In this document: positions 20,146-59,293 of the stretch, piece by piece
How the letters are laid out: every line of letters starts with the position of its first letter
Position numbering within the stretch: the first letter of the stretch is position 1
Assembly: GCA_028280785.1 (NCBI GenBank)
Contig: JANQLF010000116.1
Coordinates: forward strand, 23,377-87,376
DNA: 64,000 nt
Direction: 5' to 3'
DNA from: Planctomycetota bacterium
GTDB taxonomy: Bacteria > Planctomycetota > UBA11346
The notes under the pieces: generated by a model
What the model was told of the DNA's origin: nothing
What the model saw: only the letters and a program-made list of their open reading frames with translations
Database searches by the model: none
Translations under genes and position numbers: made by a program

Positions 20146-20277
20146 ACGCGGCGAGTTCTCGAGCCGGCGAACGCCGAAGAACGGTCTGAGCTAATTGCGA
20201 AGAAATTAATGAAGCGTAGCGGAGTTAATTAGTGATGACAAAGAGAGCGAGGGGGCATGGGGGAGTATCCCCCAAAA
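20146..20277 (+). repeat. Dispersed structured repeat, family 1, copy A
   Basis: About 130 bases. The left end holds CGGCGAACGCCG and CGGTCTGAGCTA. The central stem pairs 20204-20210 (AATTAAT) with 20224-20230 (GTTAATT) around a 13-base loop. The block GACAAAG follows, and the right end is the hairpin GGGGG-agtat-CCCCC at 20259-20273. That hairpin lies 11 bases past the stop of the minus-strand thioredoxin-fold gene. Confidence 0.8.
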
Positions 20278-20284
20278 CAAGGAA

Positions 20285-21256
20285 TCAACGCCAGCGCGGC
20301 CCTTTTTTCTTTTTACTCGAATTGCGCACATTACCGCCGCTAGTTTTTTTGCTCTGCTTTTTTAAACCAGCAAGCACACGTAAATCATTGAGGTCTGGAT
20401 TGACATCGAAAATTTTACGATCGCCACTAATGAGAATAGTCGCTGGCGTGCTTTCGACGCCCCAGGCTTCTTTCCAACGTTCGGAGTCACCTTTGGGAGC
20501 AGGATTTGCCCACATTAAATCCCAATTGGTACCTTCGGCTATTTCATTCCAGGCACTCAGTGCAGAAATATATTTATGGTCGAAGCTGACGCAGACGATT
20601 TTAAAATCTTTTTGAAATTCTTCGCGTTTGAACTCTTTGCACACTTCCTTGAACTGATAAAGTTTCCAGTCATCGTTGAGCTCGGTAAAACAATAGAGTA
20701 AGTATTTTTCTTTACTCTCAGCGACCGGATTTTTCGAATCCCCTGACAAATTATTGCCTTCCATTTGTGGTGCATCTTCGCCACGTTTTTCGTAAAGCGA
20801 TACCAGCGCGGCGTAATTTTCGAATTGGGGAATGCGAATAGTTAATTGGTCGACTAATGCACGTGCTTTACCAGTTTCACCTTTCAGTAGGTGATAGCGA
20901 ATACGCACGATGTCGAGGCTGCCTTTATGTGCACTGTAAGCACTGCTGGCAAGTCCATCCATATATTGTTTCGCGTCATCAATATCATAGGTGACGTGCC
21001 AATCAGCGAGCAAATACAGCAAGCGATTATTAGCTTTGGTGCCACGAATTTTTCGTTCTAAACGTTCTAATTCAGCACCGAGACCCAGTTCTGCTTTCAT
21101 GCGCTTCTCAGCTGGCAGCATGCGATAGGCTTCGATCTTCGCTTCCATCGCTAGTAGCTGTGCTTCTGCATCATATTGCTGTTGTTGGGATAAACCCGCA
21201 GCACTCAGCACTGTACATAGACACCAACAAAGACTCACGCGTAACATGAATGACAT
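20285..21256 (-). CDS. Secreted thioredoxin-fold protein without CxxC
   Basis: About 323 residues. A hydrophobic N-terminal segment (F-M-L-R-V-S-L-C-W-C-L-C-T-V-L) ending in S-A-A-G is a probable signal peptide. ATG 21256 is chosen because it puts the signal in normal position; ATG 21286 would add 10 residues. The middle (about 30-150) is helical and TPR-like. The C-terminal 130 residues look like a TlpA/AhpC-type thioredoxin fold: a central strand I-V-C-V-S-F-D, W-D-L-M-W, and the cis-proline loop S-T-P-A-T-I-L. The active-site C-x-x-C is absent, since the expected strand-end position reads E-L-N-D-D-W, so a redox role is unlikely. The C-terminus is very basic. Confidence 0.78.
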   Translation of the reverse strand: MSFMLRVSLCWCLCTVLSAAGLSQQQQYDAEAQLLAMEAKIEAYRMLPAEKRMKAELGLGAELERLERKIRGTKANNRLLYLLADWHVTYDIDDAKQYMDGLASSAYSAHKGSLDIVRIRYHLLKGETGKARALVDQLTIRIPQFENYAALVSLYEKRGEDAPQMEGNNLSGDSKNPVAESKEKYLLYCFTELNDDWKLYQFKEVCKEFKREEFQKDFKIVCVSFDHKYISALSAWNEIAEGTNWDLMWANPAPKGDSERWKEAWGVESTPATILISGDRKIFDVNPDLNDLRVLAGLKKQSKKTSGGNVRNSSKKKKGPRWR

Positions 21257-21309
21257 GTTGCGTAATTCTTGGAATTGGAAAGGCATATTTGGAGTTGATT
21301 CTGTTTAGA

Positions 21310-21420
21310 TTGCGAACGCCGATGAGCGGTCCGAGCTAATTGCGAGGGAATTTATGTAGTGTAACGGAATAAATTAGTGAAGACAAAGTGAGCGGGGGGC
21401 CTGGGGGCATTAGCCCCCAA
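21310..21420 (+). repeat. Dispersed structured repeat, family 1, copy B
   Basis: About 110 bases. CGAACGCCG and CGGTCCGAGCTA lie at the left. The central stem is 21349-21355 (AATTTAT) with 21369-21375 (ATAAATT) and a 13-base loop. GACAAAG precedes the right-end hairpin GGGGGC-atta-GCCCCC at 21403-21418, which is 7 bases past the ferredoxin stop. Confidence 0.82.
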
Positions 21421-21425
21421 AACAA

Positions 21426-21683
21426 CTAGTCATCTAGCTCAAATTTGATAACTTCGACAGGGCAGCCTTCAGCTGCTTCTTCGATTTGATCAGCAAGATC
21501 ATCGCCTTCATCGGCTTTGAGCGGGTTCTTCTCATCGCGGTTTTCGCTTGTTTCGCCGTCCTGACGGACTTCACCAAGGATGACGCAGGAATCTTCAGTC
21601 ACCTTAAACACTTCTGGGCAGGTGGTTTCACAGGCATTGCAGACAATGCAGCCTTCCTCGATCCAAACAGCAGTAACAGCCAT
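21426..21683 (-). CDS. 4Fe-4S ferredoxin with acidic insert
   Basis: An 85-residue ferredoxin. The motif C-I-V-C-N-A-C at residues 12-18 and a distal G-C-P near residue 74 can hold one [4Fe-4S] cluster. Extra cysteines (residues 22 and 33) are as in single-cluster ferredoxins that carry a disulfide. Between the two halves is a strongly acidic stretch of about 30 residues, which may guide binding to a redox partner. AAGGA lies about 10 bases before the ATG. It carries electrons in the cytosol; the partner enzyme is not evident from the neighbours. Confidence 0.9.
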   Translation of the reverse strand: MAVTAVWIEEGCIVCNACETTCPEVFKVTEDSCVILGEVRQDGETSENRDEKNPLKADEGDDLADQIEEAAEGCPVEVIKFELDD

Positions 21684-21837
21684 AACCTATGATCCTTCTT
21701 GTTCAGGCGTGCCTGTTGTAAGGGGCCAATGGATTTGACAAGTAGTTATGGGGTTTGGGCTGCATCAACGAGATGTATAGGCATTTCATCGCCAATAGGC
21801 GATTGCCCGGTCATAATATGCTCAAAGATGCGCATAG

Positions 21838-22788
21838 ATGCGGCGTTTCTTCACTTTTATATTTACCAAGGCCCTTGCTTCCTTGCGTTATGAAACTGCA
21901 GAACGGCTTGGGGCAGCACTTGGCCTATTGGCCTACAATCTTGGTGTTCGTCGTAAGGTAGTTGCTGATCAGATGCGTCTGTGTCTGCCACATCTATCAG
22001 TGAGCGAACGACGTCGCGCAGCAAAGCGCTGCTATGCCAGTATCGGCGCCAATGTCTTCGGCATTTTTGCAACCACAGATGACGAAGAGCCGTTTGGTTC
22101 TGGTTGGGAGCAGATGAGTCCAAGTTGGTGTCGTCTGATGGGTGAAAAATATCCCGGTGCCATTTACCTCACTTTGCATTTGGGTGCATGGGAAGCTAAC
22201 GCCTGGATTACCATGAGGCATTTACCGCCAAAACGCATGATTTGTTATGCAACTGCTCAGCGGGAAGCGTCTCTAGATAAAGAATTGAATGAACGACGCG
22301 CCCATTGTGGTGGTGAAATGGTTTTTGTTCGCGATGAAGATCGGCGCAGTGCCTTGCACACGATACGGTCTTTACGTAATGGTGAGCGTTCGGTGTATTT
22401 ATTAGCTGACCAAGGACCACGTAAACAACACGGTGAGCCCGCGTGGTTTTTAGGCCAGGCAACATATTGTCACCATGGTGCTGTGGTTTTTGCCCAACGA
22501 ACAGCGGTGCCGATTATTCCTTGTGTGAGTATTCGTATTGCATCAGGAAGATTTAAATATTTTTGTGGCCGTCCATTTGATTGCACCGACCTTGATGAAT
22601 CACTGGCATTACAAGTTTGTATGGATCAATTATCAGCATTAATAGCAGCATTTCCCGGACAATATTTCTGGCATCATCGACGTTTTAAACATTATGCTGA
22701 ATTAACAGCACGCGAAGCAGAGGCATGGCGTCAACACGGTTTGCAGATACTAACGCAGCCAGAATTGGGAGTCACTGATGTACATTGA
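21838..22788 (+). CDS. LpxL/HtrB-like lipid A acyltransferase
   Basis: A 316-residue member of the lauroyl/myristoyl acyltransferase family, which adds secondary acyl chains to lipid A or acts on other glycolipids at the inner membrane. The H-x4-E motif (H-L-G-A-W-E) near residue 118 and the L-A-D-Q-G-P segment typical of this family are present. The N-terminal helix probably anchors it to the membrane. Its presence supports a Gram-negative envelope with an LPS-like lipid. It overlaps the next gene by 11 bases. The start has no strong ribosome-binding site. Confidence 0.88.
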   Translation: MRRFFTFIFTKALASLRYETAERLGAALGLLAYNLGVRRKVVADQMRLCLPHLSVSERRRAAKRCYASIGANVFGIFATTDDEEPFGSGWEQMSPSWCRLMGEKYPGAIYLTLHLGAWEANAWITMRHLPPKRMICYATAQREASLDKELNERRAHCGGEMVFVRDEDRRSALHTIRSLRNGERSVYLLADQGPRKQHGEPAWFLGQATYCHHGAVVFAQRTAVPIIPCVSIRIASGRFKYFCGRPFDCTDLDESLALQVCMDQLSALIAAFPGQYFWHHRRFKHYAELTAREAEAWRQHGLQILTQPELGVTDVH

Positions 22789-23125
22789 TATTTTACCCAA
22801 TGATAATTTAGAAGAAGCCGTCATGGCGACGTTTAGCGAAAAAGGCGATAAAAAGCCGATCCAACGTATTCGCCTGTGGCGCCAACAAGAGTGGCAATGG
22901 TGCGCTATTACTGGCTGGCAAGATGAAGAAGCTTGTCAGGCTCATATTATTTTAATCGAAGAAAGTGGTGACGGCGAAGCCATGTTAGTAACTGGTGGCA
23001 ATCAAGGCTTACGCATTGCGCGTATTAAAGATGCCGATGCTGAAATGCCCGAGTGGGATCTCGATGATGACGAGCAGTGGGCTGAAGGGTTTTTAATTTG
23101 TACAATGGATATTGAGGTAGATTAA
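22778..23125 (+). CDS. Conserved-looking acidic protein of unknown function
   Basis: A 115-residue cytosolic protein rich in Asp, Glu and Trp, with alternating beta-strand patterns and no recognised motif. It starts inside the 3' end of the acyltransferase gene (11-base overlap, with GGGAG 7 bases before the ATG), and its stop overlaps the start of the next gene in TAATG. The tight coupling shows it is a real gene translated with both neighbours. I cannot assign a function. Confidence 0.75.
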   Translation: MYIDILPNDNLEEAVMATFSEKGDKKPIQRIRLWRQQEWQWCAITGWQDEEACQAHIILIEESGDGEAMLVTGGNQGLRIARIKDADAEMPEWDLDDDEQWAEGFLICTMDIEVD

Positions 23126-23784
23126 TGAGTGAGGCAAAGAAAATACAAACGTATCCTGACGGTGCGGATCGCTTACCAGCTGGTCAACACGAAACGACAA
23201 AATGGCCAGTGCTGACTTATGGACCAACACCCATTGTCGAAAAAGAAGATTGGCAACTACGCATGTGGGGTGCCTGCGAAAATGAAATTACTTTAAATTG
23301 GGACGATCTTAAGCAGTTTCCGTATACGACCTTAATTGTTGATTATCATTGCGTGACTACCTGGTCGGCCATGGACATGCGTTTCGGTGGTTATTTATTG
23401 CGAGATATTTTTGCACTGGCCAAACCAAGTGCTGACTGCACCCACGTGATGCAACATGCCTACGGTGATTACACCACGAATAATCCATACGATGTATTAT
23501 TAGATGACGATGTGATGCTGGTCACGGATTGGAATGATCAGCCACTGCCGCGCGAACATGGTGGACCGGTGCGCGTGCATGTACCGAAGCGTTGGGCCTG
23601 GAAAGGTGCGAAGTGGGTCAATGGATTCGAATTTTTAACCCATGATGTGCGCGGGTTTTGGGAATTAAATGGCTACCACACTCACGGCGATCCCTGGGGT
23701 GCTGGTGGCGAGCGCTATTCAAGCCAAGAACAAGCCTGGGAAAAACGCAAAGAGGGTAACCGACTACGCAAAGAACAATCCTAA
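23125..23784 (+). CDS. Sulfite-oxidase-type molybdopterin protein, cytosolic
   Basis: A 219-residue protein matching the molybdopterin domain of the sulfite oxidase/MsrP(YedY) family. Features are a strand-turn with the conserved cysteine that ligates molybdenum (V-D-Y-H-C-V-T-T-W-S, Cys near residue 77), G-Y-L-L-R-D-I for the following helix, G-G-P-V-R-V-H-V-P, W-K-x-A-K-W-V-N-G, and G-F-W-E-L-N-G-Y-H near the end. No Tat or Sec signal is seen, unlike MsrP, so it probably acts in the cytosol. GAGG lies about 7 bases before the ATG. Substrate unknown. Confidence 0.85.
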   Translation: MSEAKKIQTYPDGADRLPAGQHETTKWPVLTYGPTPIVEKEDWQLRMWGACENEITLNWDDLKQFPYTTLIVDYHCVTTWSAMDMRFGGYLLRDIFALAKPSADCTHVMQHAYGDYTTNNPYDVLLDDDVMLVTDWNDQPLPREHGGPVRVHVPKRWAWKGAKWVNGFEFLTHDVRGFWELNGYHTHGDPWGAGGERYSSQEQAWEKRKEGNRLRKEQS

Positions 23785-23954
23785 GCGTATCGTCGTAAAC
23801 CCTGTAAACAGCAACGAAAAACAGCCGCAGTGTCTGTATTTCACAGTGTTTAGGTCGTCAATGCGTTAGACAGAGTATAGTGAAATATGCTATTTGCTTA
23901 TTGCCCCGAATGCTGCTGAGCACTAGAATAGGGCATCAGGTGGAGGTCGTTTTC

Positions 23955-24305
23955 GTGGCAATCAAATTCTCTTCAGACAAAAATCCCGGTACCTCGAGTT
24001 ACAAGAAAAAACAAGCTCCCGATTTGCAGGCGCAGGTTTACGAACTGCAAAGTCGCCTTGATCGCATGGCTTTAACCATGACCGCGATGTGGGAAGTGCT
24101 CACTAAAGAGACGGAAATAACTGAAGAGCAATTAATGGAAAAAATTAATGACCTCGATATCGATGATGGGGTCATGGATGGAAAAATTGACCCAGAACAA
24201 CGCGTCTGCAAGCAATGCGGAAAGCCAATTAAACGTCGGCAACTGCGCTGTGGTTATTGTGAAACGTTTTCCCCGATCGAACGTCCTTTTGATGCTCTTT
24301 GGTGA
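23955..24305 (+). CDS. Zinc-ribbon protein with short coiled coil
   Basis: About 116 residues starting at a GTG with GGAGG 8 bases upstream. The frame is open back to 23880, but the upstream part has no binding site and odd composition. Residues about 20-75 form a probable coiled coil (Q-A-Q-V-Y-E-L-Q-S-R-L-D-R). The C-terminal 30 residues hold a zinc ribbon, C-K-Q-C then C-G-Y-C. A regulatory or scaffolding role is possible; no family is recognised. Confidence 0.75.
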   Translation: MAIKFSSDKNPGTSSYKKKQAPDLQAQVYELQSRLDRMALTMTAMWEVLTKETEITEEQLMEKINDLDIDDGVMDGKIDPEQRVCKQCGKPIKRRQLRCGYCETFSPIERPFDALW

Positions 24306-24405
24306 ATTGGGCAAATGCGTAGCATTTAAAAGAGCACGGGCGTGCTTTTCTATACCCTTGTGGTGCTTTGGCCCAAGAATAGGCAACTTTATGTTGCCGT
24401 GGAAA
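24306..24405 (+). other. Hairpin-rich 3' region
   Basis: Three small hairpins follow the stop in sequence: AAATGC-gta-GCATTT (24313-24327), AAGAGCAC-gggc-GTGCTTTT followed by CT (24330-24349, a weak terminator candidate), and GGCAAC-tttat-GTTGCC (24383-24398). Repeat copy C comes next. No gene is seen in the rest of the spacer up to 24649. Confidence 0.5.
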
Positions 24406-24537
24406 TTCTAGGGGCTCTGCCCCTAGGACCCCCGCTTCGCTTTGCACGGTCTAGCCGCATCAAGATCCAAACTAATTTATTCCGCTTCGCTATATTAATT
24501 CCTTCGCATGTAGCTCAGATCGTTTGTCGGCGCGAGC
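24406..24537 (-). repeat. Dispersed structured repeat, family 1, copy C
   Basis: The family consensus reads on the minus strand. The terminal hairpin is CTAGGGGC-tct-GCCCCTAG at 24408-24426. The central stem pairs 24474-24480 with 24494-24500 with one mismatch and a 13-base loop, and TAGCTCAGATCG follows. This is the most diverged copy; the GACAAAG block is altered. Confidence 0.72.
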
Positions 24538-24649
24538 ATTTATAAAAGTAAGCTCTTGTTAAAAAGAAGATATTAGAACTTTCCGATTCATCATACATTC
24601 TGCTTAGCTGAAATTGACATAGTAGTATTGGGTCTAGGCTTCTGAGTTC

Positions 24650-25636
24650 ATGGCAGACAACAGCTATCAAGATGTCGTTAGTAAAATGCAGGCGGCAGAA
24701 CGCATTTGTATTACGACGCATATCAATCCAGATGGTGACGGTATCGGTGCAGGTCTGGCCTTGCTCTTGGCTTTGCGTGCTGGTGGTAAGCAGGTGCGTT
24801 TTATCTGCCCGAGTCCAATGGCGAAAATTTATGAATTCCTTCCCTGCTTTGATGAAATTGTGGTTTGTGATAAACCAGAAGCTGTGAAAGAACTTGGGAA
24901 TGTCGGTACCTTGATCTCTTGCGATTGTGGTGATCGCGCACGACTCGGTGTCGTCGCTGAAGCTGAACGCGATTGCTTAATCAATTTGGATCACCATGCG
25001 AGTAATGATCGTTTTGGTGATATTAATTTGGTTGATGTGCAAGCTGAAAGCACTGGCGTTGTTGTCGAAGGTGTACTTCGCGCTTTGGGTTTTGGATTAA
25101 ATAAACCAATCGCTACCTGTCTGTATACGACCATCGTTTTTGATACCGGTCGTTTCATGCACAGTAACACCACGGCACATACCTTTCGTTGGACGGCGAA
25201 TTTATTAGATACCGGAATCGATGCTGCGTTAATTAATCGCAAATTAACCTATACGCGAACCAAGCATGATTTAGATGTACAGCGCTTAGCACTGGATTTT
25301 CTACTTATTGACGAGGAAGATCAGCGCATTGCTGGCATTGCTTTAAATAAAGCTGACATTGAACAAGTTGGGCGTCCGGAAGATTGGGGTGAGCTCGTCG
25401 AAATACCACGCAGTTTAGTTGGTAATGAAATTGCATTTTTACTGCGTGAAAATGCAGACGGGGCTTCGGTCCGATGCAGTCTGCGTTCAAATCCACCTTA
25501 CGCTGTTGGCCCAGTGGCTGAACATTTTGGTGGTGGTGGACATCTGCAAGCAGCGGGATGTACCATCGAGGGTTCGATTGACGATGTGCTGAAAGTATTA
25601 GTCCCGCAGTTGCGGCAGCAAATGAACATATCGTAA
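24650..25636 (+). CDS. DHH-family phosphoesterase, NrnA-like
   Basis: A 328-residue DHH/DHHA1 protein. Metal-binding motifs are N-P-D-G-D-G-I-G near residue 25, C-D-C-G-D near 90 and the D-H-H-A-S-N signature near 113. The C-terminal DHHA1 domain ends with G-G-G-G-H-L-Q-A-A-G, which binds substrate. Proteins of this length and layout are NrnA-type enzymes that degrade short oligoribonucleotides and dephosphorylate pAp, or act on cyclic dinucleotide products. It stands alone after a long hairpin-rich spacer and is followed, 57 bases on, by the ABC exporter pair. Confidence 0.92.
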   Translation: MADNSYQDVVSKMQAAERICITTHINPDGDGIGAGLALLLALRAGGKQVRFICPSPMAKIYEFLPCFDEIVVCDKPEAVKELGNVGTLISCDCGDRARLGVVAEAERDCLINLDHHASNDRFGDINLVDVQAESTGVVVEGVLRALGFGLNKPIATCLYTTIVFDTGRFMHSNTTAHTFRWTANLLDTGIDAALINRKLTYTRTKHDLDVQRLALDFLLIDEEDQRIAGIALNKADIEQVGRPEDWGELVEIPRSLVGNEIAFLLRENADGASVRCSLRSNPPYAVGPVAEHFGGGGHLQAAGCTIEGSIDDVLKVLVPQLRQQMNIS

Positions 25637-25693
25637 TTTATTTCTCGAATTACAGACTGGTGGAAACACCGGTTAAATTACTATTGAGCAAAG

Positions 25694-27478
25694 ATGGCTG
25701 AATCGCAGGTAAAACGTCTGACTCTGGATTTATTGAAGCGTCATCGCGGACGCTTAATCGTCCTTCTGGTACTCACGATCATAGCATTCATGAGTATGTC
25801 AGTCAGTTATTGGTTTTTTGGCGAGGCTATTTCCGATATTAAACAACATCTCGATGTGCCTAAAGACGAATTTATGGATGTCGTCGTTTTTTGGGCAGTG
25901 CTTATTATGTGTTTTTCAATTGGTCGTGGTGTGTTTTTATTCATTACGGCGTTTTTACGCATTACCGCTATTCAAACCATTTTGCACTATTTACGCGAAA
26001 CCTTATTTGATCGTGTCCAAGAGATGGAATTGGACTGGCATCATAAGCATGGCGCAGGCGAATTGGTGACCCGGACCACCCGTGATTGTGATATGGTACG
26101 CAATGCAACGGATTCTGGTTTTCAGTTAGTGGAAATTGGAACCATGCTGTGTGGATCATTAATATTGTTATATACCTATCACTGGCAGCTATTTATTATC
26201 CCATTTATTTTAGTTGTCATCGCTATGTTTCTGTATTATCGCCAAGCCAAGGTGATGGTCCATCTGAATAGGGCCACTGACGATGCCTATGATCACGTGA
26301 CGCAAGATTTAACTGAGGGCATCGCGGGTGTTCGCGTGGTTAAAGCATTTGGCTTAGAAGCCCAACGCTCAGAGCGTTTTAGCGGACACGTGAATGAATT
26401 TATCATGCATGGTTTGCGCGCGGTTAAATATGCAGTGACGCGTATTCCGTTACCGCAATTAATGGTGGCAATGGCCCATCCATGGCTCTTGGTTTGGGGA
26501 ATTCTATTAATCGAAGCAGGCGTTCGTTGTCATGCGACCGGTGATATTTTTGATGTCGGTCACTTGTTGGCCTGCTTGATGGCAGTGACTACGTTGATTT
26601 TTCGTTTAGACGGCATGGGTTCGGCGATGCGTATGATTGCCGAAGCAATTGCCTCGATGCAGCGCTTGTCCGAAGTCATTTATTCAGAGCCAAAATTAAA
26701 TAGCGGTGATCAATTAATTGCTGAAGGTGCGATACATATCGACGTTAACGATATCCAAGTACAGGATGATAAGGGGCATTGGATACTGCGCGGTTGTACC
26801 TTTGATATCAAACCAGGAGAAATCGTTGCTTTAATTGGTTCGACTGGATCGGGAAAAAGCACGCTGTGTTCATTAATACCGCGCTTGAAAGATGCCTACG
26901 CTGGGTCGGTTACCTTTCGCGATGAACAAGGCGGTGAGACTGAAGTACGGAATTGTGATTTATCGAAATTACGTCGCCGCGTTCAGGTCGTGCCACAGGA
27001 AAGTTTTTTGTTTTCTGACACGATCGCTGGCAACATGCGTATGGGTAAGCAGGACGCCAGCGATGATGAAATCTGGCAGGCCTTAATTGATGCAGGCATA
27101 GATGAGTTCGTCCGTGGTCTTGACGATCAATTAGATACGCAGGTTGGTGAACGCGGTATGAATTTAAGTGGTGGTCAAAAGCAGCGCTTATGCTTGGCCC
27201 GTGCTTTGGTTAGTAAACCCGACGTGTTAATTTTGGATGATAGCACCAGTGCCTTGGACGCGATCACCGAAGAACATATTTTTAAATTGATGCGTGAACA
27301 AAAAAGCGGCTCATCGGTTTTGTTAGTAACGACCCGTTTATCGAGTGTTTTATTAGCCGATCGTGTTTTGTTGTTAGGTGATGGTCAAATAATTGCCAAC
27401 GATACGCATCAACATTTAGCTGAGCACAATGATCGTTATCGCGGATTGCTCTGTCTCGACCAGGAGGGCTCGGTATGA
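25694..27478 (+). CDS. ABC exporter subunit with degenerate ATPase site
   Basis: A 594-residue fused membrane and ATPase half-transporter: six-helix domain (about 1-330) and nucleotide-binding domain (about 345-590). Walker A is G-S-T-G-S-G-K-S-T near 381, and the signature is L-S-G-G-Q-K near 491. Walker B reads L-I-L-D-D-S, with Asp in place of the catalytic Glu. The switch histidine is replaced (V-T-T-R-L instead of A-H-R-L). These losses mark the non-catalytic half of heterodimeric exporters such as BmrC or TM287. It overlaps the next gene by 4 bases (ATGA), so the two halves are translated together. Substrate (lipid, drug or peptide) unknown. Confidence 0.93.
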   Translation: MAESQVKRLTLDLLKRHRGRLIVLLVLTIIAFMSMSVSYWFFGEAISDIKQHLDVPKDEFMDVVVFWAVLIMCFSIGRGVFLFITAFLRITAIQTILHYLRETLFDRVQEMELDWHHKHGAGELVTRTTRDCDMVRNATDSGFQLVEIGTMLCGSLILLYTYHWQLFIIPFILVVIAMFLYYRQAKVMVHLNRATDDAYDHVTQDLTEGIAGVRVVKAFGLEAQRSERFSGHVNEFIMHGLRAVKYAVTRIPLPQLMVAMAHPWLLVWGILLIEAGVRCHATGDIFDVGHLLACLMAVTTLIFRLDGMGSAMRMIAEAIASMQRLSEVIYSEPKLNSGDQLIAEGAIHIDVNDIQVQDDKGHWILRGCTFDIKPGEIVALIGSTGSGKSTLCSLIPRLKDAYAGSVTFRDEQGGETEVRNCDLSKLRRRVQVVPQESFLFSDTIAGNMRMGKQDASDDEIWQALIDAGIDEFVRGLDDQLDTQVGERGMNLSGGQKQRLCLARALVSKPDVLILDDSTSALDAITEEHIFKLMREQKSGSSVLLVTTRLSSVLLADRVLLLGDGQIIANDTHQHLAEHNDRYRGLLCLDQEGSV

Positions 27479-29277: not shown

Positions 29278-29285
29278 ATCATTTT

Positions 29286-29393
29286 TAGCAAACTAGTATG
29301 GGTCTTGGTCCGTAGCTGCGCAACTCTTGGTTTTAGTTTACGGTCTTGGAAACTAAGACTAAGACCGAAGCCAAGACTGATACTAGTTAGCTA
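29286..29393. repeat. Inverted-repeat element, family 2, copy 1
   Basis: A 108-base element with 23-base terminal inverted repeats (29286-29308 and 29371-29393, 20 of 23 positions pairing; core ACTAGTAT). A nested inverted pair, GGTCTTGG with CTAAGACC, lies inside. It sits 8 bases after the exporter stop. No coding capacity is seen, and no clear target duplication could be made out. Confidence 0.72.
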
Positions 29394-29499
29394 TTTTCAT
29401 CTTATTCTCCTTCAGTGAAAGTCTCTCTATTTCCTCTGTGATTTCCGTGATAGAATAATTATATTGACAATATTGAGTTTGTTTTAGATTGCGATCATC

Positions 29500-29641: not shown

Positions 29642-29654
29642 AATGGAGTTTATC

Positions 29655-30485: not shown

Positions 30486-30507
30486 TTTCGTGGAACGCAG
30501 TAAAAAT

Positions 30508-30566: not shown

Positions 30567-30651
30567 GCATAAGCCTCTATTTTTCAGTCGTTTAGAAATA
30601 CCCGCTCGAGTGTTCTAAAGGCATTGTGAGGCAATTTCTTGACTCAAAAAT

Positions 30652-35289: not shown

Positions 35290-35375
35290 TAGTAAACTAG
35301 TATGAGTCTTAGTCTTAGTTAACGGTCTTGGGTACTAAGACTAAGACCAAAGCAAAGACTGATACAAGTTAGCTA
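35290..35375. repeat. Inverted-repeat element, family 2, copy 2
   Basis: An 86-base copy of the element at 29286-29393, with inverted ends at 35290-35312 and 35353-35375 and a shorter middle. It starts 2 bases after the sulfatase stop. Its right end covers the stop codon of the convergent lipase gene (TAA at 35369-35371). Confidence 0.72.
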
Positions 35376-36181
35376 TCTATTTTATTCTCTGCTAACACGG
35401 CCAATCGCTGCGAATAATTTATCGGCGCATGATCGCTTAAATGCTTGGGTGTGCTAAACCATAAAGTTGGATCTTTAAGGCGTTCTTTGAAGCGATCGCG
35501 TTTGCGTTCTTCGGTGCCAAGCCAAAGGGCTTCACCGATATGTTTATAGATAAAACGGTCTTTGCTTGGTGGGAGATGTGTCACGATGTCATCTCTGTTG
35601 CAGCAACGTAAATGAAAAATATGTTCAAATTGTTGTGAAAATGTTTCATCACCAACTCGTGGTGAGCCAAAGGTAAATAAGGCATTGGCTTTACAGGTGA
35701 GTGCTGCGATGGAGGCCATTGCGCCACCGAGGCTGTGACCACAGCAAATTAATTGTTTATAGGTGGGCATGTGTCTTCGTAAATGTTGCCAACATAAATC
35801 AAACGCTGCTAAAAATCCAGAATGAACTTTTCCATAATTGTCAAATTGTTCTAGCAGTGCATCAATATTGCGCAGCCAATTTTTAGGCTGGTTGGTGCCA
35901 CGAAAGGCGAGTATGCAATTCTCTTGGTGCATCCAAATGCCTGCAGCAAGGTCTTCCACTTCGCACCAATAGTGTTCGCTGCACTCAATCTGGTCTAATG
36001 CGCTCTGTCGTGCATGAGCATTGGTGTTGTAAGCGAGACGCGAACATTCGCTAAACAACCAGGCAAGCTGATGCTTATTATCCACATCAAAGGCTAATTC
36101 CCCAAAGACTGCTGGGCCTTGAAAGTATTCTTCACTATCGCCTGGCGTAAAAACCGCTGACCATGTCGCATCATCTAGCAT
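35369..36181 (-). CDS. Class 3 lipase-like alpha/beta hydrolase
   Basis: A 270-residue cytosolic hydrolase. The nucleophile elbow is G-H-S-L-G-G near residue 150. The acid is likely in N-R-D-D-I-V-T-H-L-P near 205, and the histidine in S-D-H-A-P-I-N-Y near 252, the order found in fungal-type class 3 lipases. F-R-G-T-N-Q near 92 matches the oxyanion strand of this family. No signal peptide is visible. The stop codon lies inside a family 2 repeat, so the last residues may have been set by insertion of that element. Confidence 0.88.
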   Translation of the reverse strand: MLDDATWSAVFTPGDSEEYFQGPAVFGELAFDVDNKHQLAWLFSECSRLAYNTNAHARQSALDQIECSEHYWCEVEDLAAGIWMHQENCILAFRGTNQPKNWLRNIDALLEQFDNYGKVHSGFLAAFDLCWQHLRRHMPTYKQLICCGHSLGGAMASIAALTCKANALFTFGSPRVGDETFSQQFEHIFHLRCCNRDDIVTHLPPSKDRFIYKHIGEALWLGTEERKRDRFKERLKDPTLWFSTPKHLSDHAPINYSQRLAVLAENKIDS

Positions 36182-40163: not shown

Positions 40164-40287
40164 AATACTATGCACCAATAACGAAATGCAGTGATAAAAA
40201 AATGTATATTACAATTACAAGAACAATTAAAATAAAGATTCTGAACGCCGACTTGTATACGTCGGGAACTCAGTGTCTACTCTTTAT

Positions 40288-40389
40288 TTCGGGGCTACGC
40301 CCCGGTCCCCCGCATGCTTTGTCTTCTCTAATTTTTTCCGTTACACTCCAAAAATTCCCTCGCATGTAGCTCGGACCGTTCATCGGCGC
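40288..40389 (-). repeat. Dispersed structured repeat, family 1, copy D
   Basis: The consensus reads on the minus strand. The terminal hairpin is CGGGGC-tac-GCCCCG at 40290-40304, and the central stem pairs 40330-40336 (AATTTTT) with 40350-40356 (AAAAATT) around 13 bases. TAGCTCGGACCG and a CGGCG end follow. This copy has the opposite orientation to the others relative to the nearest gene end (the YacP-like gene stop at 40417). A separate hairpin, AAGCTGC-ttac-GCAGCTT, lies at 40394-40411. Confidence 0.8.
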
Positions 40390-40416
40390 AGGCAAGCTGC
40401 TTACGCAGCTTAAAAA

Positions 40417-49593: not shown

Positions 49594-49607
49594 ATCAGAG
49601 GTCAAGT

Positions 49608-51602: not shown

Positions 51603-51605
51603 AAG

Positions 51606-53084: not shown

Positions 53085-54294
53085 TACCCAAATGTCTCCG
53101 ATGCAATTAGTGTGGCGTAGATTTATAGCCAAGCGTTCTGCGAAAATTGGTATGTGGAGTGCGTTAGTTATATTCTTAACTGGCACTTATGCCCCTTTTA
53201 TCGCATCAGAAATCGCATTAATCTGGTGGGATGAAAATGGCCTTCAATTTCCAGCTTTTGCTAGTCTCTTCAATAGATTAGAATATGTGCATCGACACGA
53301 TTTATTATTTAATTTGATTGCATTGTTATTACCAATTATGGTTTTGGCTGGTGTGTTCTTGCGTAAAAAATTTAAATTAGGAAACATGGTACTCTCTTGC
53401 ATTGGAATCTTAACGGCAATTTGGATAGTTTGTCAGCTGCCTTTGATACCTGGTCAGGATAGAATGCGTGCTTTATGGGATAATAGACCTTTGGCTCAAG
53501 AGGATATAGGAAACTATACCAAAAATCCCGATAAAGTTTTTGCCATCTTCCCAATTGTTACTCACGGATTTGAACAAACCTATCAAGGTGCAAATTTAAA
53601 AGCGCCTTTTACTATGAACGAAAAAACCAGTCAGAGGTTTTGGATGGGTACTGATGTTCGTGGTCGCGATGTGTTAGTGCGGATGTTATATGGTGCACGA
53701 ATTAGCTTAACAGTTGGCTTGGTTGCTACGGGAATATCTTTGATCATCGGAACAATTTTTGGTGCGTTAAGTGGTTATTTTGGTGGATGGGTTGATTTGT
53801 TAATGCAGCGAATGGTTGAGGTCATGATGTCTTTCCCAACTTTTCCGTTAGTGATGGTGGTTGTTGCTATGACGGGGAGAAATGTGTTTATCATGATGGC
53901 AGTTATTGGATTAACCGGATGGGCTGGAACAGCTCGATTGGTGCGTGGCGAATTCCTGGCTCAGATGAATCGTGATTATGTTTTGGCCGGTAGAAGCATG
54001 GGTTTACCTGGTTGGCGCATTATGTTCAGGCATGTCTTGCCGAACGTATCTGCACCGTTGTTGATTGCTGCGACCTTTGGTATTGCAGGTTCGGTTGGCG
54101 CAGAGAGTGGTTTAGCATTTATTGGGCTTGGTGATGCTAATGCACCAAGTTGGGGTGATTTAATGAATCAAGGACGACAAAATATTAAGTATGCTTGGTT
54201 GATCTATATACCGGGAATTGCTATTTTTACCATTATAACGGCGCTAAATTTAATGGGTGAATCGTTACGTGAAGCGATGGATGTGAAGAGCTGA
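53077..54294 (+). CDS. Peptide ABC transporter permease, DppC-type, extended
   Basis: A 405-residue permease, about 100 longer than normal DppC. The first 190 residues hold three or four hydrophobic helices and a loop with D-R-M-R-A-L-W-D-N-R. The typical G-T-D-V-R-G-R-D-V-L-V-R segment begins near residue 192, the EAA loop is A-G-R-S-M-G-L-P-G-W-R-I, and the end is L-N-L-M-G-E-S-L-R-E-A-M-D. ATG 53077, with GGAG 5 bases upstream, is used; the frame is open to 53035 inside the preceding gene. It forms the channel with the DppB-type protein. Confidence 0.92.
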   Translation: MADTQMSPMQLVWRRFIAKRSAKIGMWSALVIFLTGTYAPFIASEIALIWWDENGLQFPAFASLFNRLEYVHRHDLLFNLIALLLPIMVLAGVFLRKKFKLGNMVLSCIGILTAIWIVCQLPLIPGQDRMRALWDNRPLAQEDIGNYTKNPDKVFAIFPIVTHGFEQTYQGANLKAPFTMNEKTSQRFWMGTDVRGRDVLVRMLYGARISLTVGLVATGISLIIGTIFGALSGYFGGWVDLLMQRMVEVMMSFPTFPLVMVVVAMTGRNVFIMMAVIGLTGWAGTARLVRGEFLAQMNRDYVLAGRSMGLPGWRIMFRHVLPNVSAPLLIAATFGIAGSVGAESGLAFIGLGDANAPSWGDLMNQGRQNIKYAWLIYIPGIAIFTIITALNLMGESLREAMDVKS

Positions 54295-54296
54295 TC

Positions 54297-55133
54297 ATGA
54301 GTAACGTCTTATTATCATTTCAAGATCTACACGTTCACTTTGATAATGGTGAACGACAGGTTGATGCTGTTAAAGGTTTATCGTTTGATATTAATGAAGG
54401 TGAAGTTGTCGCCTTAGTTGGCGAGTCAGGGTCAGGTAAGTCAGTATCGGCCATGTCTTCGATTCGACTTATACCAGAACCACCTGCATCTTATCCGCAG
54501 GGTGAAATTTTGTGGAAGGGTCAAAATGTACTGGCCTGCGACAATGAGGCGATGCGCAAGATTCGCGGTAATGATATCGGCATGATTTTCCAAGAGCCGA
54601 TGACGGCATTAAATCCAACGTGGACATGTGGTCGTCAGGTTGCTGAGTCTTTACAATTGCACACTGAATTAGAAGAATCACAAATTCGCGGTAAAGTTTT
54701 AGAATTGTTTAATGCCGTTGGCATTACCGAACCAGAGCAACGCCTTGATCAATATCCACATGAATTATCCGGTGGCATGCGTCAACGTGTGTGTATTGCG
54801 ATTGCCCTGGCTTGTGATCCGGCTTTATTAATTGCTGACGAACCAACGACGGCGTTGGATGTAACGATTCAGGCACAAATACTTGATTTAATTAAACGTT
54901 TACAACGTGATCGTGGGATGGCGGTATTATTTATTACTCACGATTTAGGTGTGGTTGCTGATTTGGCAGACCGTGTGGTGATTATGTGGAACGGTGAAAA
55001 AGTCGAAGAGGGGACTTGCGTGGATATATTCAAAAATCCACAGCATCCGTACACCAAAGGATTGCTTGCCTGTCGCCCTCGACTTGGAGTTAAACAAGAT
55101 CGATTAAAAACAGTTTCAGATTTTCTGGAATAA
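54297..55133 (+). CDS. Peptide ABC transporter ATPase, DppD-type
   Basis: A 278-residue ATPase. It has Walker A G-E-S-G-S-G-K-S near residue 42, Q-loop F-Q-E-P-M-T-A-L-N-P, signature L-S-G-G-M-R-Q-R, Walker B L-I-A-D-E-P-T-T-A-L-D and the oligopeptide-type tail H-P-Y-T-K-G-L-L. It is shorter than the usual 320-330, as the metal-binding C-terminal region is mostly missing. Only one ATPase is encoded here, so it may homodimerise or pair with a DppF encoded elsewhere. A strong terminator follows directly. Confidence 0.93.
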   Translation: MSNVLLSFQDLHVHFDNGERQVDAVKGLSFDINEGEVVALVGESGSGKSVSAMSSIRLIPEPPASYPQGEILWKGQNVLACDNEAMRKIRGNDIGMIFQEPMTALNPTWTCGRQVAESLQLHTELEESQIRGKVLELFNAVGITEPEQRLDQYPHELSGGMRQRVCIAIALACDPALLIADEPTTALDVTIQAQILDLIKRLQRDRGMAVLFITHDLGVVADLADRVVIMWNGEKVEEGTCVDIFKNPQHPYTKGLLACRPRLGVKQDRLKTVSDFLE

Positions 55134-55164
55134 AAAAACCCGGATAAACATATCCGGGTTTTTT
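55133..55164. terminator. Bidirectional intrinsic terminator
   Basis: A perfect stem ACCCGGAT with ATCCGGGT, extended by five A-T pairs, and a 6-base loop AAACAT; A-tract on the left and T-tract on the right. It ends the peptide transporter operon on the plus strand and the thioredoxin gene on the minus strand. Confidence 0.9.
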
Positions 55165-55179
55165 AGGAAATGCGAAATC

Positions 55180-55497
55180 TTAAGAATTAGTTTCGATAAA
55201 CTCTTTCAATGCAGGTAGCGGTTTGAAACCAAGCGTGCGGCTAATTTCTTCACCATTTTTAAATAAAATGAGTGCAGGAATATTGGTTATGCCATATTGA
55301 GCTGCAATGGTAGGTGCATTCTCAACATCTAGTTTACCAATCTTGGTTGTGTCAGCCATGTCTGTGGACAGTTTATCAACGATAGGTCCAAGCTGCTTAC
55401 ATGGTGGGCACCATTCTGCCCAGAAATCTACTAAAACTGGTTTATCGCTTTTGAGGACTTCTTCTTCCCAATTTGCTTCTGTAAATTCAGCGGCCAT
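55180..55497 (-). CDS. trxA: Thioredoxin
   Basis: A 105-residue thioredoxin with F-W-A-E-W-C-P-P-C-K near residue 30 (active site C-P-P-C in place of the usual C-G-P-C), the cis-proline loop N-I-P-A-L and the expected G-x-K-P-like end. It reduces protein disulfides in the cytosol. AAAAGGAG lies about 6 bases before the ATG. It is convergent with the peptide transporter across the shared terminator. The C-P-P-C motif is less common and may raise its redox potential. Confidence 0.93.
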   Translation of the reverse strand: MAAEFTEANWEEEVLKSDKPVLVDFWAEWCPPCKQLGPIVDKLSTDMADTTKIGKLDVENAPTIAAQYGITNIPALILFKNGEEISRTLGFKPLPALKEFIETNS

Positions 55498-55633
55498 TTC
55501 TAACTCCTTTTTGTGTGGGAAACGCAGGCTAAAGACAATCTTGCCTTGTGCAATTAAATACGAGTTAAAAGCAATGGTGTTAGATTTGGCAAAATCGTAG
55601 TTGTGTAAGCGAGCACAGAGCCATCCTTAGTGC

Positions 55634-56296
55634 ATGCCCGACATACGCGTATTGCCCAGTCTGCTCTCTGCTGATTTTTCAAAACTTGCTGAAGAACTAC
55701 AGATGTGCGAGGACGCTGGCGCCCAAGCTCTACATGTGGATGTCATGGATGGGCACTTTGTCCCTAACCTGACCTTGGGCCCTTTCATCGTCAAGGCGAT
55801 GCGTGGGCACTGCAGCAAGTGGCTTGATGTGCATTTGATGATGACCCATCCCGTGCAATATGCCCAGGCCTTTCGTGATGTTGGATCTGATGCGATTACC
55901 ATCCACGTCGAAGCTGTCGGTCCACGGGCGATGAACGAAGCGATCGCTGCAGTCAAAGCGACCGGAGCTAAGGTTGGTCTGGCCTTCAACCCTGACACTG
56001 ATCCGACACTGTGGTTTAAGTTTATGGATCAGGTCGATTTGGTGATGTTTATGACGGTCTATCCTGGTTTTGGTGGTCAGTCCTTTATCCCAGAAGTGCG
56101 TCCATTCATTCGCAAGACGCGTGAGGCCTTCCCCGAGCTGGATATTCAGATCGATGGCGGGCTCAATCGCGAAACGATCCCGCTGGTGGTGGCCGATGGA
56201 GCCAATCATTTGGTCTGTGGTAGCGCCTTCTTTAAAGATAGCGATAAGGCCGAGTTTATTAGCTGGGCTGAGAGCTTGGAACTCGGCAAAACGTAG
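55634..56296 (+). CDS. rpe: Ribulose-phosphate 3-epimerase
   Basis: A 220-residue TIM-barrel enzyme that interconverts ribulose 5-phosphate and xylulose 5-phosphate in the pentose phosphate or Calvin pathway. Signatures: P-S-L-L-S-A-D-F near the start, H-V-D-V-M-D-G-H-F-V-P-N, V-H-L-M near 67, M-T-V-Y-P-G-F-G-G-Q-S-F, and I-D-G-G-L with V-C-G-S-A-F at the phosphate site. All key residues, including the two histidines and two aspartates that hold the metal, appear present. Confidence 0.96.
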   Translation: MPDIRVLPSLLSADFSKLAEELQMCEDAGAQALHVDVMDGHFVPNLTLGPFIVKAMRGHCSKWLDVHLMMTHPVQYAQAFRDVGSDAITIHVEAVGPRAMNEAIAAVKATGAKVGLAFNPDTDPTLWFKFMDQVDLVMFMTVYPGFGGQSFIPEVRPFIRKTREAFPELDIQIDGGLNRETIPLVVADGANHLVCGSAFFKDSDKAEFISWAESLELGKT

Positions 56297-56411
56297 TCAC
56301 GAAAGGCTCCTTTTGAGAGCCCGTCTCACTTGAGCGCAGCCCAAGCCGCACTACCGTGTGGCCCCGCTAAGACATGTCGGAAATAGGTGCTTAGCGCAGT
56401 GAGGAGTATCC

Positions 56412-58262
56412 ATGAGTAAGGATAAGCAGCAGTCTGCTGGAACCCCGGCCAAAGGGCCAAACATTTTTCAGACCATCCTGGTGGTCTTCTTAGTCATAGC
56501 CGTTGGTCTGATCTTTGGTCTCGGTCAAAGTAGTCTGACTGGTATGGTCGGTAAAAATATTGTCGAAATCCATAAGGGTTTTACTAACGCTGATTACCAA
56601 CGCCATGCACGTGTGCAAACCATTCTGTATTCCCTGCAGCGAGGAATAAAACCGCAGGATATGGAAGAGCGCGTATGGCGTGGTCAAAATGATTATATAT
56701 TTCGCACCTTAGTATCGAATCCTGGTAACACCTTAGTTATTGCAAAGCTTGGTGAAGACGAGGGTATGATGCCAAGTGGTGATGAACTCAAGGCGCTCGT
56801 TGACGAATATTTATCTAGACCTGTTTTTGGAATCGAAGATGCAAAAACACTACGCGCGGCAGTGCGTCAAGTAATAGAAGCAAATGAACCTGGCCGCAGT
56901 TTAAAGCCAAAAGAAATTCAAGAATTTATTGCTAATATGCGTTCGCATGACAACTATGTAAGTCGTTATGCGCCAAACATCGTCATCAATAAATCCGCAA
57001 CTGATATTTTTGCAAAATTTGAAAATGAAGAGATTAAAACTGAAGAGGCAACCATCAGTACAGCAACAATGATCGAATCATATAAAGAGGGTGTCTTGGC
57101 TGAGGAAGAGAAAATCCAAGAAGCCTATGAGACATTGAAAGAAGAACGTTTTGTCATTCCACGCAAGTGTCATTTCACCTGTATTTCAGTAGACGTGGCT
57201 GAGGTGAAAAAATCAGTCGTTGTGTCTGAAGATGAAATCAAAGCTTACTACGAAAAAAATAAAGAGAGCGACCCTCAATTGAAAAAAGAGGTACCCAAAG
57301 AGGTGAAAGAACTGAAAGAAGGCGAAGAGCCGCCAAAGCCTGAAATAGTGACTAAGACGCTCGAGGAGTCCAAGGACTATATTCGCGATACTCTTGCAAC
57401 TAAAAAAGCAGAAGAGGTAGCGGTTGAATTGGCAGACACCTTTCAATTTAAAATTGAGGAAGAGTCCTTGACTGAAGGTGATAAAATTGCTGAAGGTAAA
57501 CGTGATGCCGTGTTAAAGTTAGTCGACAATGTTTCAATAAAAGCCGATGACAAACGATTAAACAAAGATATTAAATTAAGTGTTCAATCGAAATTAACTG
57601 CTGACGATCCTGGTGCTGGTACGGTCTACAGCATTCTTTTAGAAGACGGGAAGCCATTTGCTAAAATGCAGGTGCCTAAAACCAGTCCGTTTAATAAAGA
57701 AGTCGACACCTTTTTTGTGAAGAAGCAGGCATTTGATAATGGTGATCTCTACATCATCCAAATCATCGATGGTTTTACTGAGGCAGATTATAAAGCTTAT
57801 GACAGTGTGAAGGATGAGGTGGTTCATTATTTATGTGCACAAAAGGCTTTTCCCGATTTAATTAAAAAGGCTAACGAGATTATAAAAACGGTGTCTGGGC
57901 AAACTGATGGCACCTTAGTTAAATACTTTGATGCTGAAGCAAATAAGAAGTGGGCGGCACAAATACAAGATAAAACTTATGGGCCACTCGAAACCGTTGT
58001 GGTTCCTACAGCTGAAGATTTAGGCAACTTCGAAGAAAATTTACCAATGATTGCCTACACATTGCCAGGCAAAGGCGTCTTCTTAGCCGTGGCAAATAAC
58101 GATGGTGATATGAAACGTGTAACCATCCGTCGTATAACTGGTCACGGCATTAATGCCGAAGATGGACCAAGGGATAATAATTACCGTGTTGGTGGAATTG
58201 TCCGTGGCTTAAGCCAAATAGATCTCCTAGAAACACTCCAAGCTGCATTGACAGAGGAATGA
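56412..58262 (+). CDS. PpiD/SurA-like membrane-anchored chaperone
   Basis: A 616-residue protein with one membrane helix at about residues 19-42 and the rest outside, the topology of PpiD. A SurA-N-like helical region is followed by F-V-I-P-R-K-C-H-F and V-V-S-E-D-E-I-K-A-Y-Y-E-K-N-K, the typical linker that leads into the PPIase region of PpiD. No clear parvulin active site is seen, so isomerase activity may be lost. The likely role is chaperoning of exported proteins at the inner membrane. GAGGAG lies 5 bases before ATG. It ends 4 bases before purC. Confidence 0.75.
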   Translation: MSKDKQQSAGTPAKGPNIFQTILVVFLVIAVGLIFGLGQSSLTGMVGKNIVEIHKGFTNADYQRHARVQTILYSLQRGIKPQDMEERVWRGQNDYIFRTLVSNPGNTLVIAKLGEDEGMMPSGDELKALVDEYLSRPVFGIEDAKTLRAAVRQVIEANEPGRSLKPKEIQEFIANMRSHDNYVSRYAPNIVINKSATDIFAKFENEEIKTEEATISTATMIESYKEGVLAEEEKIQEAYETLKEERFVIPRKCHFTCISVDVAEVKKSVVVSEDEIKAYYEKNKESDPQLKKEVPKEVKELKEGEEPPKPEIVTKTLEESKDYIRDTLATKKAEEVAVELADTFQFKIEEESLTEGDKIAEGKRDAVLKLVDNVSIKADDKRLNKDIKLSVQSKLTADDPGAGTVYSILLEDGKPFAKMQVPKTSPFNKEVDTFFVKKQAFDNGDLYIIQIIDGFTEADYKAYDSVKDEVVHYLCAQKAFPDLIKKANEIIKTVSGQTDGTLVKYFDAEANKKWAAQIQDKTYGPLETVVVPTAEDLGNFEENLPMIAYTLPGKGVFLAVANNDGDMKRVTIRRITGHGINAEDGPRDNNYRVGGIVRGLSQIDLLETLQAALTEE

Positions 58263-58266
58263 TTGC

Positions 58267-59163
58267 ATGAGCGCACTTAAAGAAAGTAATTGTCCTGACC
58301 TTGAATTAATTACACGCGGAAAAGTTCGCGATTTATATAATATCGATGATGAACATCTGCTGTTCGTAGCAACTGATCGCATTAGTGCTTTCGATGTTGT
58401 TATGGAAAATGGCATACCTGGAAAGGGTAAGGTTCTCAATCAATTAAGCGTCCATTGGTTTGATGTCCTGGGTGACATCTGCCCGCACCATTTAGTTGCT
58501 ACTGACATGTCAGACATGCCGGCAGCGGTTCAATCATATAAAGATCAATTAGACGGTCGTTGTATGTTGGTGAAAAAAATAGAAATATTACCAGTTGAAG
58601 CGATTGTTCGTGGATACATCACTGGTTCAGGTTGGAAAGAATATCAGAAGCAAGGCACCATCTGCGACATTCCTCTGCCGGAAGGTCTGCAAGAAAGCGA
58701 AAAACTTGAGCAACCATTGTACACGCCAAGTACTAAGGCTGAGCAAGGCTTTCACGATGAAAATATTCATCCAGATAAAGCTGCTGAAATTATCGGCGAA
58801 GAACGCGCTAAGAAAGTCGATGATTTAGCGATCACACTTTATAGTAAGGCTCGTGATTTGGCTGCAGAAAAAGGTATTATCATCGCAGACACTAAATTCG
58901 AATTTGGTGTTGATAAAGAAGGAACAGTTATTTTAGCTGATGAAGTCTTAACACCTGACTCGTCACGTTTCTGGCCTGCTGATGAATACGGTATTGGTCG
59001 TGGTCAAAATAGCTTCGACAAACAGATTGTGCGAAACTATTTAGAAAGCGTTAACTTTGATAAAACTAATCCAGTTGAACTACCAGATGAAGTCTGCCAA
59101 AAGACCATTGGGAAGTATGTTGAGGCGTACAAAATGTTAACTGGTAAAGACCCGGAGCTTTAG
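58267..59163 (+). CDS. purC: Phosphoribosylaminoimidazole-succinocarboxamide synthase
   Basis: A 298-residue ATP-dependent ligase of de novo purine synthesis (SAICAR synthase), which joins CAIR and aspartate. Motifs: G-K-V-R-D-L-Y near residue 18, T-D-R-I-S-A-F-D-V, E-A-I-V-R-G-Y-I-T-G-S-G-W, and D-T-K-F-E-F-G, followed by D-E-V-L-T-P-D-S-S-R-F-W. The length matches the longer SAICAR synthases. A family 1 repeat starts right after the stop codon. Confidence 0.96.
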   Translation: MSALKESNCPDLELITRGKVRDLYNIDDEHLLFVATDRISAFDVVMENGIPGKGKVLNQLSVHWFDVLGDICPHHLVATDMSDMPAAVQSYKDQLDGRCMLVKKIEILPVEAIVRGYITGSGWKEYQKQGTICDIPLPEGLQESEKLEQPLYTPSTKAEQGFHDENIHPDKAAEIIGEERAKKVDDLAITLYSKARDLAAEKGIIIADTKFEFGVDKEGTVILADEVLTPDSSRFWPADEYGIGRGQNSFDKQIVRNYLESVNFDKTNPVELPDEVCQKTIGKYVEAYKMLTGKDPEL

Positions 59164-59293
59164 TTTCGGGGGCTTTGCCCCCGAGCCCCCCGCTCACTTT
59201 GTCATTACTAATTTACTCCGCTAAAGCTCCGTAAATTTCCTCGCAAGTAGCTCGGACCGTGCTTCGGCGTTCGCCGCCTCGAGAACTCGGCGT
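59164..59293 (-). repeat. Dispersed structured repeat, family 1, copy E
   Basis: The consensus reads on the minus strand. A 7-bp hairpin CGGGGGC-ttt-GCCCCCG at 59167-59183 starts 3 bases after the purC stop. The central stem pairs 59210-59216 (AATTTAC) with 59231-59237 (GTAAATT) around 14 bases. TAGCTCGGACCG, CGGCGTTCGCCG and a CGAGAACTCGGCG end follow; the last two are shared with copy A. Confidence 0.82.

Follow-up and report, generated by a model that had tools for sequence, protein, structure and literature searches.

Integron attC sites are single hairpins with paired outer ends, and the guide RNAs of TnpB and IscB are folded RNAs at the end of a mobile element, beside sequence that matches the target. 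REP palindromes are described as being 20 to 40 bases long and tagged GTAG or CGTC (PMC3733652), and roles in termination and mRNA stability have been hypothesised for REP and REPIN sequences. In fungal mitochondria, the mobile ORFs (mORFs), such as the atp6 hybrids of Allomyces and Glomus, consist of an inserted foreign C-terminus, a mobile element, and the displaced native C-terminus; the two tails have different DNA sequences but preserve the protein, and the element codes for an endonuclease that cuts element-free alleles (PMC3630166). Diversity-generating retroelements (DGRs) bring about change at a gene 3' end beside a hairpin; one joint has a fixed position, and homology provides the other (PMC3240598).

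A stretch of 64,000 nucleotides from a Planctomycetota genome (GenBank assembly GCA_028280785.1, contig JANQLF010000116.1, positions 23,377 to 87,376; here called the window) had been noted to hold five copies of a dispersed repeat. These repeats are copies of one non-coding element of about 115 bases, which represents an unnamed family of predicted folded sequences that extends across one planctomycete family. The element stands between the dispersed hairpin repeats and the tail-carrying homing elements, having the arrangement of the latter and not their coding content. Like REP and REPIN sequences, it occurs as many short, dispersed, hairpin-forming copies outside genes; unlike them, it is about 115 bases long and combines a junction of stems P1 to P4 with a hairpin, P5. 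In contrast to the mORFs, this small element has no coding content and occupies dozens of places in a bacterial chromosome. With the TnpB and IscB guide RNAs it shares a predicted folded stretch that lies beside matching sequence.

RESULTS

Copies of the element in the window and in the genome

The genome to which the window belongs (G000) is a metagenome assembly of 5.68 Mb in 316 contigs, 89.7% complete and with 1.1% contamination. A blastn search with one copy as the query returned 22 places. A covariance model, R1, was built from an alignment (A2) of 19 of the 23 G000 copies then known; L010, L017, L019, and L021 were left out as partial or bearing an insert. All five repeats reported in the window were recovered by R1, with E values of 7.9e-24 to 2.8e-10. 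Four of these were among the 19 copies in the alignment, and the copy at 24403 was independent of it. The features in the window are as follows.

20147..20166, + strand: optional 5' hairpin H1 of copy 1 (CGCGGCGAGTTCTCGAGCCG), seen in the sequence; this hairpin also precedes several other copies
20167..20280, + strand: element copy 1, from P1 to the A-rich tail (R1 match, E 2e-21)
21312..21425, + strand: element copy 2, from P1 to the A-rich tail (R1 match, E 7.9e-24)
24403..24537, - strand: element copy 3, in which GA is split from CAAAG by about 20 inserted bases (R1 match, E 2.8e-10; outside the R1 alignment)
40283..40393, - strand: element copy 4 (R1 match, E 9.4e-21)
59161..59274, - strand: element copy 5, its tail overlapping the stop codon of the gene at 58267-59163 (R1 match, E 2.5e-23; overlap seen in the sequence)
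59275..59294, - strand: optional 5' hairpin H1 of copy 5, seen in the sequence

The earlier note had described a shared CGGTCYGAGCTA, which is exact in four of the five copies and has one mismatch in the copy at 24403, and the motif GACAAAG, which is indeed present in four copies, its GA and CAAAG being split by the insert in the copy at 24403. The central arms that it had listed, corresponding to stem P4, are present in the sequence of the window copies, and none of the five has a T-tract after P5. Its statement that four copies face a gene end, three of them within 3 to 11 bases of the stop, held for three copies and with different distances: stop codons lie at -3, 0, and +4 nt from the 3' end of three window copies (ORFs 20285-21286 and 21426-21683 on the minus strand and 58267-59163 on the plus strand). 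The stop closest to the copy at 24403 is 97 nt away under the ORF rule used here, and the copy at 40283 has its hairpin end facing a gene start (40178) and its opposite end facing a gene stop (40417).

Dozens of further copies, which the note had named as support for a folded family, were found in G000, where R1 gave at least 69 matches, at least 65 of them at E<=0.001. Since the best 150 candidates were scored per genome with R1 and with a second model, R2 (see below), all such counts are lower bounds. A pattern scan of the genome contigs was also made, and 31 loci among the matches listed were inspected by eye. Rfam 15 gave no match in the window at the gathering score, in agreement with the view that no named family fits. 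At E<=5 in 20000-24700 and at E<=1 in eight loci, no Rfam match fell on a copy except for permuted-tmRNA matches at L025, which scored 25 bits, under the 47-bit cut-off. Searches of the open-licence literature brought up no description of such an element.

An insert consisting of TCTCGATGCGGCTTGACCGTA or a sequence like it lies between GA and CAAAG in the window copy at 24403-24537 as well as at C145:41551, C25:415, C190:4736, and others. A longer insert form with two interleaved inverted repeats occurs at C158:19418 and C200:8769, and the short form looks like a deletion of this longer one.

Predicted fold and covariation

Read from 5' to 3', the element begins with the optional and variable hairpin H1, followed by the closing stem P1 (e.g., GCGAAC/GTGAGC), a conserved internal loop (GCCGA/GACAAA), stem P2, and a junction with P3 and P4. 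The strands that close P2 and P1 come next, and beyond them lie a G-rich link, P5 as a GC hairpin, and an A-rich tail, for example AAAACAA. The "central stem" of the earlier note is P4, and its "terminal hairpin" is P5; the whole fold is larger than the note had described. The element is predicted to fold into a three-way junction and then a GC hairpin, as RNA or as one DNA strand.

In A2 (the 19 seed copies), 83.3% of the cells were paired and 25 of 32 pairs had changed on both sides, with both-side changes in 97 cells versus 33.5 +/- 4.2 in shuffles. A second alignment, A1, was made from relatives and comprised 17 of 21 regex matches plus L027, with L030, L124, and two of the three L125 copies left out; in these 18 copies, 95.2% of cells were paired and 24 of 36 pairs were two-sided (117 both-side changes versus 34.1 when shuffled). 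Rows of two further alignments were aligned to the model itself, which favours the model: A6, with 43 non-seed G000 copies (91.2% paired; 31 of 32 pairs two-sided; 317 versus 90.8), and A3, with 56 matches from G012, G018, and G011 (93.9% paired; 30 of 36 pairs two-sided; 336 versus 105). When one side was slid by 1 to 3 columns, pairing went down to 30 to 48% in A1, A2, A3, and A6. Moreover, P1, P2, and P3 covary besides P4. The significant covariation to which the note had looked for support was thus seen against both the shuffle and the slide controls, in the 43 non-seed copies as well. Measured against the drawn fold, the inner two P4 pairs do not form in 44 and 47 of the 55 A3 rows, and standard pairs make up 57.9% of the P2 cells of A2.

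A tandem GA/AG mismatch is found in P1, P2, and P3 of 8, 10, and 13 of the 19 copies, respectively; two standard pairs occupy the same position in 2, 2, and 6 copies, and the remainder have other mismatches. Helix cells with G.U outnumber those with A.C in A2 (14 versus 7), A1 (11 versus 1), and A3 (11 versus 2). The tandem GA mismatches and the excess of G.U over A.C favour a structure of this strand, whether as RNA or as single-stranded DNA. Together, covariation and copy number back the proposal of a folded RNA or a hairpin-DNA substrate that is not an ordinary terminator.

The element does not match two known classes. It lacks the terminal inverted repeats and short target duplication of a MITE: its 5' end (H1 or P1) does not pair with the tail, and the flanking repeats, where seen, are 42 to 103 bases long and non-identical. 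It does not match an integron attC either, its fold being branched with P5 and the tail outside P1.

In some G000 copies (C116:2783, C3:7719, C143:5505, and C158:19418), P5 is absent or has been swapped for another repeat, GTGAATTTCGCAAATGC- or GGCAACATAAAGTTGCC-like.

Distribution among relatives

R2, the model built from A1, gave matches in at least 18 of the 23 genomes of the family, in all 12 genera, with at least 140 in G011, 113 in G012, 86 in G004, 84 in G018, 73 in G017, and 26 in G015. In G014, G005, G020, G019, and G001, there were no R2 matches among the best 150 candidates per genome. Copy number varies inside genera; one has genomes with at least 86 and 0 matches, and another has genomes with at least 113, at least 84, at least 31, and 0. 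The same variation is seen at single loci. At L125 of G017, an element lies 2 nt past the stop of a gene ending in KLKKQNKR, and the orthologue in the congener G011 (L076, ending in KLKKANRK) is without it; a second L125 copy is likewise without a counterpart in L076. A comparison of L319 with L310 and L313 suggests a gene-order break at the element. For an array in G004, a search for an element-free counterpart in G014 matched only bases 8 to 660 of one flank.

Head-to-tail arrays of the element occur in several relatives, and a tandem pair stands at one orthologous place in G012 and G018 (L298 and L324). One copy in G016 lies directly 5' of the tmRNA, and one in G000 is next to a tRNA. Phage-borne spread was considered and rejected, since the core pattern had seven matches in viral contigs and none was a true copy by eye.

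5'-truncated copies of the element were observed right after the 3' end of a full copy or at contig starts (in G017: L074, L088, L111, L113, and L147), and L217 has one truncated match covering model positions 39 to 127.

Position relative to genes

Most copies adjoin gene ends. With ORFs of at least 80 codons within 400 nt considered for the 69 listed G000 copies, 35 copies have converging gene ends on both sides and 3 are flanked by two gene starts (raw counts). A gene on the opposite strand ends at the 3' side of the element in 49 of the 69, its stop lying at -12 to +14 nt in 28 of these 49; a gene on the same strand ends at the 5' side in 48, no more than 48 nt from P1 in 30 of them. The converging arrangement and the close facing stops would suit an inherited host module that serves as a transcript end or an exonuclease barrier for converging genes, with any displaced gene tails (see below) being accidents of ordinary strain recombination, and the tandem pair retained at an orthologous place in G012 and G018 is also in keeping with inheritance. 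We nevertheless regard this explanation as unlikely, given that congeners of high-copy genomes have zero copies and that the displaced tails are distributed in a way that chance recombination does not explain. A transcript-end role could, by itself, be compatible with mobility.

Displaced second gene tails

In 13 of the 69 listed G000 copies, none of them in the window, the element stands between two versions of one sequence in the order A-element-B; 12 of these involve gene tails and one involves a gene start. These 13 show the same order of parts as the mORFs, with the element between two versions of one gene stretch. A nucleotide search of 65 of the 69 copies (the other four end at contig ends) identified 10 in which a stretch A, 42 to 103 bases long and lying 5' of the element, is repeated ungapped as B on the 3' side, at 80 to 98% identity and with B beginning 1 to 6 nt past the model end. 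In 9 of the 10, A closes an open frame that is 90 to 524 codons long, and at least five frames continue beyond the stretch examined; at C145:4010, A is the start of an opposite-strand gene. At C151:38190, the first few bases of an element are also common to A and B. When the 41 copies with a gene ending upstream were searched at the protein level, 12 had relics. Nine of these 12 overlap the 10 from the nucleotide search, and the other three, which are shorter (C297:59602, C237:10754, and C198:2462), each begin within 2 codons of the element 3' end. The other 56 listed copies are without a relic. Several repeats in a tRNA array around C230:36507, a 15-base match between neighbouring C143 copies, and a G018 copy (L028/L091) flanked by two stretches of 213 bases, which have 95% identity and resemble tRNA-array units, were not counted.

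Such a repeat is absent from the 37 gene ends of the window examined that are without an element (one 20-base repeat was found elsewhere), and the mirror arrangement was found in 0 of 44 cases. In the nucleotide search of 56 copies at 40 loci of G012, G018, and G011, no gene tail was found behind the element; the repeats at the element 3' end in these genomes are element sequence, belonging to arrays. Relics have thus been seen in G000 alone. The restriction of relics to the 3' side of the element (12 of 41 versus none in the mirror arrangement) is what the host module with chance recombination leaves unexplained. Alternatively, A-element-B might be produced by mis-joins at repeats between co-occurring species. 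The assembly is indeed a fragmented metagenome with several copies at contig ends. However, such chimeras would have to arise in 13 separate cases near the same element end, in different codons of the matching gene and with no obvious shared joint sequence, while never giving the mirror arrangement, and we therefore hold this explanation to be very improbable.

On the gene side, the transition is seamless and in frame; on the element side, there is an abrupt joint near one fixed element end. By eye, the joints have A-rich tails of varied length and no consistent microhomology. The element resembles DGRs in a change at the gene 3' end by a hairpin, with one fixed-site joint and the other, as we read it, by homology. 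Unlike in DGRs, no RT appears to track the element in the assemblies searched, and the differences between A and B are synonymous and of several kinds, with no adenine rule by eye.

Comparison of A with B

Over ten A/B pairs, there were 79 synonymous differences in 139.8 sites and 10 nonsynonymous differences in 481.2 sites (pN/pS = 0.037; P of about 7e-9 for so few nonsynonymous changes, assuming that half of the changes are free of constraint). Values of pS ranged from 0.08 to about 1 across pairs, and no A/B pair was identical. From the almost purely synonymous difference it follows that A and B were each functional coding sequences while they diverged, before coming to lie side by side. 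In the clearest case, the ruvB locus (C124), G000 has one full ruvB and the relic, in addition to a distant AAA relative. The relic continues into a C-terminus of its own, ETPPNQQTGFL, and the gene has ESQGNIFDK. Over 87 bases of ruvB, G006 and G016 are closer to B, and G010, G009, G007, and others are closer to A.

Proposed mechanism

The explanation that we consider likeliest, at perhaps a little less than an even chance, is that the element moves between related species as a homing unit, composed of the end of the preceding gene and the element, whose 3' end is joined into the last codons of the resident gene. A homing-type process was preferred by analogy, as the fungal mORFs arrive at the A-element-B order after cutting by the endonuclease that they encode (PMC3630166). 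A break would arise near the gene end in an element-free allele, and an allele of another species that carries the element would serve as the repair template, homology giving a seamless transition on the gene side. The 3' side of the element would be joined directly, so that the tail of the resident gene would be left as a relic. A candidate enzyme acting in trans would make the break or recognise the fold, and P5 may be tolerated, or be useful, as a transcript end. If true, a tiny non-coding bacterial element does the work of the enzyme-coding homing elements of fungal mitochondria, gene tails cross species boundaries even in core genes such as ruvB, and the relics mark each exchange of gene tails between species in a form that can be counted. 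The pairs of high-copy and zero-copy congeners would then offer a route to the partner enzyme.

A bolder possibility, which we think doubtful, is that the folded RNA would be the active part of a new bacterial homing class, having no protein of its own and directing tail replacement as template or guide. So read, and with comparably low probability, the element might be a natural counterpart of a recoded-rescue gene drive, the displaced tail being a record, or even the guide, of each jump. The guide version is disfavoured at two loci, since A and B are identical in their first 22 bases at ruvB and in their first 42 at C143. Recoding of A as an escape from the guide was also considered and rejected, as it did not hold generally across the pairs.

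Candidate enzymes

Genes for RT, RAYT, and TnpB appear not to track the element across the family, in which some assemblies are incomplete. In none of the 18 genomes with the element did a match to the TnpB zinc-ribbon exceed the cut-off, and the IscB RRXRR domain had no match in six genomes, in a search whose control was silent. A retron RT was rejected as the engine because the occurrence of RT genes in the family does not follow that of the element. The sole RT of G000 (C251:14824-15789, L051) has 322 aa, a hydrophobic N-terminus, and its best score with retron-type models; the only C251 element match listed, at 5617-5730, is not beside it.

These observations bear on RNA-templated retrohoming of the kind postulated for DGRs. 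Here a nick in the resident gene would prime reverse transcription of an RNA that comprises gene tail and element and ends in the A-rich tail, and homology would complete the upstream side. Such joining would explain the A-rich tails of varied length at the joints, where consistent microhomology is lacking; the strand-specific fold, with its tandem GA mismatches and excess of G.U over A.C, also fits, and in DGRs the 3' cDNA joint is likewise made at a fixed site while the 5' joint needs homology (PMC3240598). However, RVT_1 had no match in G011, with its at least 140 copies, or in G016, G022, G013, and G003 (assemblies 62 to 86% complete), and it did match in the zero-copy genomes G001, G005, G019, and G020. 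Moreover, a foreign transcript would have to be made inside the recipient cell. Retrohoming of this kind therefore seems to us improbable.

That the element is REP-like and is mobilised by a single-strand transposase of the Y1 (RAYT) type appears considerably less probable still. A strand-specific hairpin would suit such an enzyme, and Y1_Tnp matches were found in 20 of the 23 family genomes (G000 has three Y1 proteins), two of the three without any (G005 and G001) being element-free. However, of 20 Y1 loci examined, mostly with some 2 kb of flank at either end, only 1 contains a copy, at a distance of about 1 kb; the other 19 have no adjoining copy, which also sets the element apart from REP and REPIN sequences. 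G017 (at least 73 copies, 61% complete) is without a Y1 match, the zero-copy genomes G014, G020, and G019 have Y1 matches, and the gene-tail relics are left unexplained.

Other repeats and genes observed

A second repeat family is present in the window as two 70-mers (29325-29394 and 35307-35376) that are 89% identical and contain TCTTGGTTTTAGTTTACGGTCTTGG, and resembling stretches flank other G000 copies of the element. In G016, four loci (L038, L039, L041, and L042) have another GC-rich repeat, ending in GGGGGCAGAGCCCCCAAAAGGTGTCGAACC, that is possibly related to the element. The window also contains two neighbouring related genes, at 1394-3820 (808 aa) and 4362-6773 (803 aa), which are rich in Gly-Asp-Gly repeats and about 72% identical in parts.
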